Of a stretch of DNA of 64,000 bases, positions 10,075 through 23,846 are shown one piece after another (the stretch's first letter is position 1; each line of letters starts with the position of its first letter). The notes beneath the pieces are model-generated. The model worked only from the letters and a program-made list of their open reading frames with translations. It did no database searches and had not been told where the DNA came from. Position numbers and translations under genes: made by a program. The stretch is from a bacterium (GTDB taxonomy: Bacteria > Spirochaetota > Leptospiria > Leptospirales > Leptonemataceae): contig JANSYA010000003.1 of NCBI GenBank assembly GCA_024742665.1, forward strand, positions 310,001 through 374,000, read 5' to 3'.

Positions 10075-10413
10075 CGTAAACCAGTGGAAGCCTCTGTCTG
10101 AATTTTGCAAGCGATTCCGATGCGCTCGCGACGACTGCGCTGCGCATCGCAACGCCGTGCATCGCCCGGAACGATCACTGAATGGTTTCGCGTGGCTATC
10201 GCCCGAATCGAATTCCGCGAACTCTATCTCGATTCGGAGAGGGCCGCGTTGAGCGCGACTTCCATACAACAAAGAACCCAGGCGCAGTCCGATTCACATA
10301 CAGGCAACATAGCATTGAACCCGCGTTTCGAGCGGGATGCCGAAGCCAGCGAGTACATAAACTCATGCTATGGGCTGGCTGAGGATTTCGCCACCAGAAC
10401 TGGACGAAGAAAA
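10075..10413. other. Non-coding stretch upstream of the sensor kinase
   Basis: I see no convincing gene in this stretch, which leads into the hairpin array. It holds a small hairpin with CCCGC and GCGGG arms near 10320-10340 and a wider pair of AGCCAGC and GCTGGCT arms at about 10335-10371. The promoter of the sensor kinase should lie here, but I cannot point to a clear -10/-35 pair. Confidence 0.4.
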
Positions 10414-10660
10414 ATTACCGTCGGCGATTGGACTGGAGGAACCTGCGGTCCCTGAATTCACAGCAATTTATCGCCGTCGGCGATAAAACCAGAAAAACTC
10501 TGCGAGTTTTTCTATTCACAGCATTTTGTAGCTCTGCTACAAATCGGAAAGATGCCTGGCGGCATCCTTCATTCACAGCAATTTATCGCCGTCGGCGATA
10601 AAATCGGAAGAACCTGCGGTTCTATTATTCACAGCATTTTGTAGCTCTGCTACAAAATGC
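10414..10660. repeat. Tandem array of small hairpins with a constant linker, 3' of tRNA-Asn
   Basis: The linker ATTCACAGCA occurs four times, at 10456, 10514, 10571 and 10627, spaced 58, 57 and 56 bases. Three linkers are followed by two short hairpins and the last by one. The first hairpin alternates between two forms: TTTATCGCC-GTC-GGCGATAAA at 10467-10487 and 10582-10602, and TTTGTAGC-TCT-GCTACAAA at 10525-10543 with an extended 12-bp version at 10634-10660. The second hairpin differs each time but stays paired: AGAAAAACTC/GAGTTTTTCT at 10491-10513, GATGCC/GGCATC at 10551-10566 and AGAACC/GGTTCT at 10609-10623, mostly with a TGC loop. A decayed unit lies at 10414-10453. The arms change while pairing is kept, which indicates selection on structure. 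The last hairpin ends on the tRNA discriminator base. No function is assigned. Confidence 0.85.
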
Positions 10661-10732
10661 TCCCCCGGTTGGACTCGAACCAACGACCAATTGATTAACA
10701 GTCAACTGCTCTACCGACTGAGCTACAGGGGA
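10660..10732 (-). tRNA. tRNA-Asn (anticodon GTT)
   Basis: The 73-base sequence folds as a standard cloverleaf: acceptor TCCCCTG pairing with CGGGGGA (one G-U pair), D arm GCTC/GAGC, anticodon stem GTTGA/TCAAT with loop CTGTTAA giving anticodon GTT, and T arm GTTGG-TTCGAGT-CCAAC. The discriminator is G73. CCA is not encoded, as the next bases are CAT. The 3' end coincides with the base of the last hairpin of the adjoining array. Confidence 0.96.

Positions 10733-22325: not shown

Positions 22326-22354
<29 letters not shown>
22274..22354 (-). repeat. Imperfect duplication of the rho 3' end
   Basis: The last 29 bases of rho (22326-22354, coding LASMNVPAS and stop) recur at 22274-22302 with about 23 of 29 bases matching, 52 bases downstream. 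The copy would encode ASMNVPSS then a stop in another frame relative to rho. It looks like a local tandem duplication that moved the original tail behind a second one. Confidence 0.6.

Positions 22355-23846
<1,492 letters not shown>

Follow-up and report, generated by a model that had tools for sequence, protein, structure and literature searches.

A tandem hairpin array directly behind tRNA-Asn in Leptonemataceae as a candidate repeated terminator and 3' trailer

The rtT/tyrT distal repeats of enterobacteria are about 178 bp long and include part of the tRNA 3' end. Integron attC sites carry R boxes (RYYYAAC/GTTRRRY), and DnaA boxes share a conserved TTATNCACA core. rtT RNA has been listed as a variable-number tandem repeat (PMC2658671), and tRNA trailers of the 3'ETS-leuZ type sponge sRNAs (PMC7154689). 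These systems, together with intrinsic (Rho-independent) tRNA-operon terminators and REP/BIME palindromes, were compared with an array of hairpins lying directly 3' of a tRNA-Asn gene in a 64-kb window (i.e., the whole stretch of DNA analysed).

The array occupied window positions ~10416-10661 on the minus strand, as did all features listed here, behind tRNA-Asn (GTT; 10660-10732 by Rfam, 10659-10732 by ARAGORN). Reading out of tRNA-Asn the order was: A1, linker, B1, A2, linker, B2, A3, linker, B3, A4, linker, B4, and a decayed half unit. The AGCA at the 3' end of tRNA-Asn forms the 5' foot of hairpin A1 (10633-10661, 13 bp), which takes in tRNA bases A72 and G73 and the following CA; most of its pairs had a probability of about 1 in the fold ensemble of the window. 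The first hairpins alternate: A3 (10525-10543) has the arms of A1, and A4 (10467-10487) is identical to A2 (10582-10602, 9 bp), copies that appear to show block duplication. The second hairpins all differ, with unlike arms and with loops TGC, TGC, TGC, and TGGC on the plus strand: B1 (10609-10623), B2 (10547-10570; 10 pairs including one G-U), B3 (10491-10513; 10 bp, with the most terminator-like tail of the window's array), and B4 (10437-10453; 7 pairs including one G-U on the tRNA strand). Linkers 1 to 4 (TGCTGTGAAT on the tRNA strand in linker 1) lie at 10627-10636, 10571-10580, 10514-10523, and 10456-10465; the copies of ATTCACAGCA start at 10456, 10514, 10571, and 10627, with spacings of 58, 57, and 56. 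The decayed half unit (A5) forms the distal end at 10416-10433.

An earlier note on this DNA had described four constant linkers spaced 56-58 bases, alternating first hairpins, second hairpins with varied arms and a mostly constant TGC loop, and a last hairpin (A1) containing the discriminator. All of these were recovered, and A1 also contains the last acceptor base. The count of seven short hairpins that it had claimed was borne out: all lie in 10467-10661 and are perfect, with arms of 6-13 bp. Of the two hairpins called decayed, the distal half unit is decayed, but B4 is intact if one G-U is allowed on the tRNA strand. Per 253 bases the window averages 0.31 perfect hairpins with 6 bp or more, whereas the array has seven, and an equal density occurred nowhere else in the 64-kb window. 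Counted over 250 bases, tRNA-Asn of the window had 7 such hairpins and the other tRNAs checked in the window's genome (G000) and in G013 had 0-3. The array transcript folded far better than shuffled sequences (z = -7.0 when the tRNA was included, -5.6 when it was left out). The array is real and the original observation is confirmed.

Each described system shared some features with the array. Like rtT/tyrT repeats, it is tandem, directly 3' of a tRNA gene, presumably part of the transcript, and variable in copy number; unlike them, its units are 57-62 bp, hairpin-built, and without a tRNA-end piece. An rtT-type repeat was rejected: contact with the tRNA end is confined to the first unit, and there is no further tRNA-end copy in the window. 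Like a 3'ETS-leuZ trailer the array would be the 3' external spacer of a tRNA precursor, but it is repetitive, highly structured, and without a known target. Integron attC sites (PMC8946536) likewise have ~60-base units, imperfect palindromes, a varying middle, and strand asymmetry; the array has no genes between its units and was rejected as an attC array, R boxes being absent on both strands. Integron integrases gave no match above the TIGR02249 cut-off in the four array-bearing genomes, with below-cut-off matches as in all control genomes. REP/BIME palindromes (PMC3733652, PMC2817692) are also short palindromes grouped in intergenic DNA, but the array sits at one locus without dispersed copies and no copy was found outside it in G000. 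A DnaA-box cluster was rejected by eye, the linkers of relatives breaking CACA (CAAA, CCCA, CATA) and keeping the adjacent GCAA. In Rfam the tRNA itself was the only match above the gathering score, and the literature search found no description of such an array. Intrinsic terminators resembled it in the B stems with G-C pairs, the GNRA-like or short loops, the position of the first B hairpin within ~50 bases of the tRNA end, and, in part, the mostly T-rich tails. They differed from it in that the array is tandem, has an A hairpin joined to the tRNA end and a conserved pairing linker, and has weak tails in the window.

Using BLAST and a covariance model, no second array copy was found in the 6.03-Mb genome. 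The earlier note's suggestion of a mobile hairpin repeat was dropped, as there is one locus per genome. The search of genome and relatives that it had proposed gave no copies elsewhere in the genome, but three of the family's 22 genomes, all belonging to a second genus (g2), had the same architecture behind tRNA-Asn: 2.5 units in G013, 2 units in G016, and one unit plus a remnant in G001, with units of ~62 bp. Altogether, copy number ranged from 1 to 4.5 across four genomes with units of 57-62 bp, and the distal units were decayed in all four arrays. A model (R1) built without the G001 unit recovered that unit at E = 1.7e-7 and was convincing only at the tRNA-Asn 3' end or a displaced fragment of that end. 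Model searches of 48 genomes of the class and 393 of the phylum gave no convincing addition, the weak matches inspected being terminators or unrelated sequence. Phages, plasmids, and viral contigs gave no match, or matches without a tRNA or hairpin array. Because the genus of the window and g2 were not sisters in a Rho tree, either the array is ancient in the family, with losses or gaps in assembly elsewhere, or it was transferred. Several relatives within the window's own genus had no good tRNA-Asn match or had other DNA directly behind tRNA-Asn, so that absence of the array from them is uncertain.

The tRNA-Asn gene is an integration site, with the array on the chromosomal side. In G001 a serine-recombinase gene followed tRNA-Asn, and beyond an island of ~17 kb came ACAACCGGGGGAGCA, a fragment of the tRNA end directly preceding the array. 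In G016 tRNA-Asn was separated from the array by a second tRNA end and about 110 bases. A WYL regulator gene, convergent with the array, lay beyond it in both genomes. In G013 the array touched tRNA-Asn and the next gene encoded a convergent EPTP/DUF6242 protein, the WYL gene being elsewhere; the gene beyond the window's array encodes a histidine kinase and is co-directional. Since the downstream genes differ among the four genomes (three contexts), the array is associated with tRNA-Asn and not with a downstream gene. Under either of the two leading interpretations considered below, it marks the tRNA-Asn integration site in this family (Leptonemataceae).

The array is most likely a tandem, mostly bidirectional terminator and 3' trailer of tRNA-Asn, an interpretation given about an even chance of being right. 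It is read in this way because the B hairpins resemble intrinsic terminators and because G015 (genus g4 of the same family) has a single plain terminator just behind tRNA-Asn, with a stem, a GCGA loop, and a T run, without A or linker. All nine B hairpins of the four arrays pair on the tRNA strand as stable GC-containing stem-loops. In a TransTermHP-type tail test, with weights and a threshold of -2.5 as quoted in PMC12306157, 7/9 B hairpins passed on the tRNA strand and 9/9 on the opposite strand, random tails passing at 18%. Terminators of other tRNA genes served as controls, and the best tails scored close to them. In the window three of four passed (one barely, one moderate, one good) and one failed, and these weak tails count against a terminator. 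So do hairpin A and the linker, which are additions that a plain terminator does not require. A further point against is that in G001 the array is not needed next to tRNA-Asn, the two being parted by ~17 kb.

As terminator and trailer, the array would work as follows. Hairpin A1, on the tRNA 3' end, may shape 3' processing or trimming of tRNA-Asn. Behind it, one to four and a half tandem modules (linker, B stem-loop, U-rich tail) would be transcribed and would stop transcription leaving tRNA-Asn, with termination at the B hairpins; the symmetry of the modules suggests that they could block incoming transcription from the opposite side as well. Repetition may make up for the leakiness of single copies. 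The array of the window, which is the longest, faces a co-directional gene and the shorter arrays face convergent genes, which fits insulation in the four cases available. Such an array would offer a clear example, in nature, of terminators multiplied behind a tRNA that doubles as an integration site; their arms would have been rewritten from one species to another without loss of structure. The earlier note had listed a termination or processing region and a structured RNA among its possibilities; both stay as leading readings, and a structured array reading out of tRNA-Asn is supported.

Pairing of the arms was kept across genera. In all four genomes the first A hairpin has an outer AGCA/TGCT, the AGCA being the tRNA end, but the remainder differs, with 5 to 10 two-sided changes and no one-sided change per genome pair (single bulged bases were set aside by hand). 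Across the nine B hairpins, 53/54 inner cells were paired (98%). Their covariation score was 0.97 compared with 0.26 in shuffles (0/500 as high), with loops trimmed to three bases for the alignment, which leaves the counted pairs unaffected. An arm-swap control on the hairpins gave 0/100,000. As the hairpins were chosen because they were paired, the slid and shuffled controls outweigh the raw pairing percentage. The covariation proposed by the earlier note was thus found, also in relatives, but its claim that changed arms with kept pairing are evidence of selection on structure proved weaker than stated, since arm copying could contribute. One-sided intermediates are nearly missing; the arms may therefore have changed in one step, for instance by template switching, and covariation alone is not full proof of selection. 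That two-sided rewriting could happen without selection also counts, as a suggestion, against the terminator reading. The strand bias of wobble pairs and the conserved linker, considered next, are better arguments for selection than covariation.

The linker had been taken for a constant spacer; it is instead half of a longer hairpin. The extended hairpin was recognised because RNAalifold, run on the raw unit alignment, reported a linker/5'-arm helix as the only helix. Linker GCTGTGAA is able to reach over hairpin B and base-pair with the following A hairpin's 5' arm (TTTGTAGC, TTTGTGGC, TTCTCAGC, and so on). The resulting hairpins reach 20 pairs: E1 (linker 1, B1, and the 5' arm of A2; 10595-10635, weak), E2 (linker 2, B2, and the 5' arm of A3; 10535-10580, 20 pairs with a 2-nt bulge), and E3 (linker 3, B3, and the 5' arm of A4; 10480-10522). 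Inner A hairpins and extended hairpins are mutually exclusive: E2 excludes A3, and in the ensemble of the window E2 reached about 0.75 and A3 about 0.2. Folded alone, the extended hairpins had more G-U pairs on the tRNA strand (23) than on the opposite one (4), although the helix came from an RNA program that allows and so favours G-U. Their summed energies were -148 and -126 kcal/mol, respectively. In a fixed register 54/64 cells paired, most misses belonging to the decayed row W4 or to one or two positions in the middle, with 15 G-U and 2 A-C (both A-C cells in the decayed row); as the units share descent these counts are not independent and the significance of the extended hairpin is weakened. 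The outer helix is conserved, not covarying. The excess of wobble pairs on the tRNA strand points to the RNA level.

These observations bear on the idea of an independently functioning structured RNA, released by cleavage from the tRNA-Asn precursor, whose two exclusive folds would present or hide UGCUGUGAAU to an RNA or protein; this is possible but rather unlikely. The linker is nearly constant between the window's genus and g2, whose Rho proteins share 78% identity, and the arms are not. The exchange of the A 5' arm between its own 3' arm and the preceding linker, the wobble bias, and a repetition that would suit a sponge or multi-site scaffold also agree with it. The linker centre changes, however (GCTTTGAA, GCTGGGAA, GCTATGAA), copy number varies, Rfam yielded a chance-level match only, and no partner is known. 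An RNA acting in trans would represent an undescribed tRNA-linked RNA family. A more specific form, a new tandem two-state family from the tRNA-Asn precursor with a constant element hidden or shown by hairpin exchange and with a regulatory target, is doubtful.

A DNA-level element, with single-strand hairpins at the tRNA-Asn integration site used or left by site-specific recombinases, is improbable. It would account for the serine-recombinase gene and duplicated tRNA ends of relatives, for an array starting exactly at the integration point, and for perfect palindromes without one-sided changes. In G001 and G016, nevertheless, attR has the array on its chromosomal side, no recombinase was seen among the neighbouring window genes scanned, the window holds no second tRNA end, attC boxes are absent, and arms that vary leave no arm sequence to serve as a binding site. 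Least probable is a functionless relic, i.e., a tRNA terminator tandemly duplicated with palindromes kept by template-switch correction. The distal decay, the exclusively two-sided A-arm changes, and the block duplication favour it; against it stand a linker conserved between genera outside the short palindromes, a strand bias of wobble pairs, and an array that stays with tRNA-Asn despite changing neighbours.

Additional features were seen around the array and at other tRNA loci. Just past the array, before the histidine kinase gene, a further hairpin (AGCCAG...CTGGCT) lies at 10344-10382, and a gene for transcription termination factor Rho (22329-23846; Pfam Rho_RNA_bind, Rho_N) lies about 12 kb away. 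Several genomes from outside the family carried repeats of the tRNA-Asn 3' end together with its downstream flank, recalling the tyrT tRNA-end repeats. In G000 (C9:520246-525505) about 20 tRNA-like genes, some low-scoring, occurred in ~5 kb, possibly a phage- or plasmid-like tRNA array. In G005 (C1:1207124-1215956) three tRNA-end copies with related flank followed tRNA-Asn within 9 kb in both orientations, with an apparent serine-recombinase C-terminus (by eye), suggesting nested or repeated integration.
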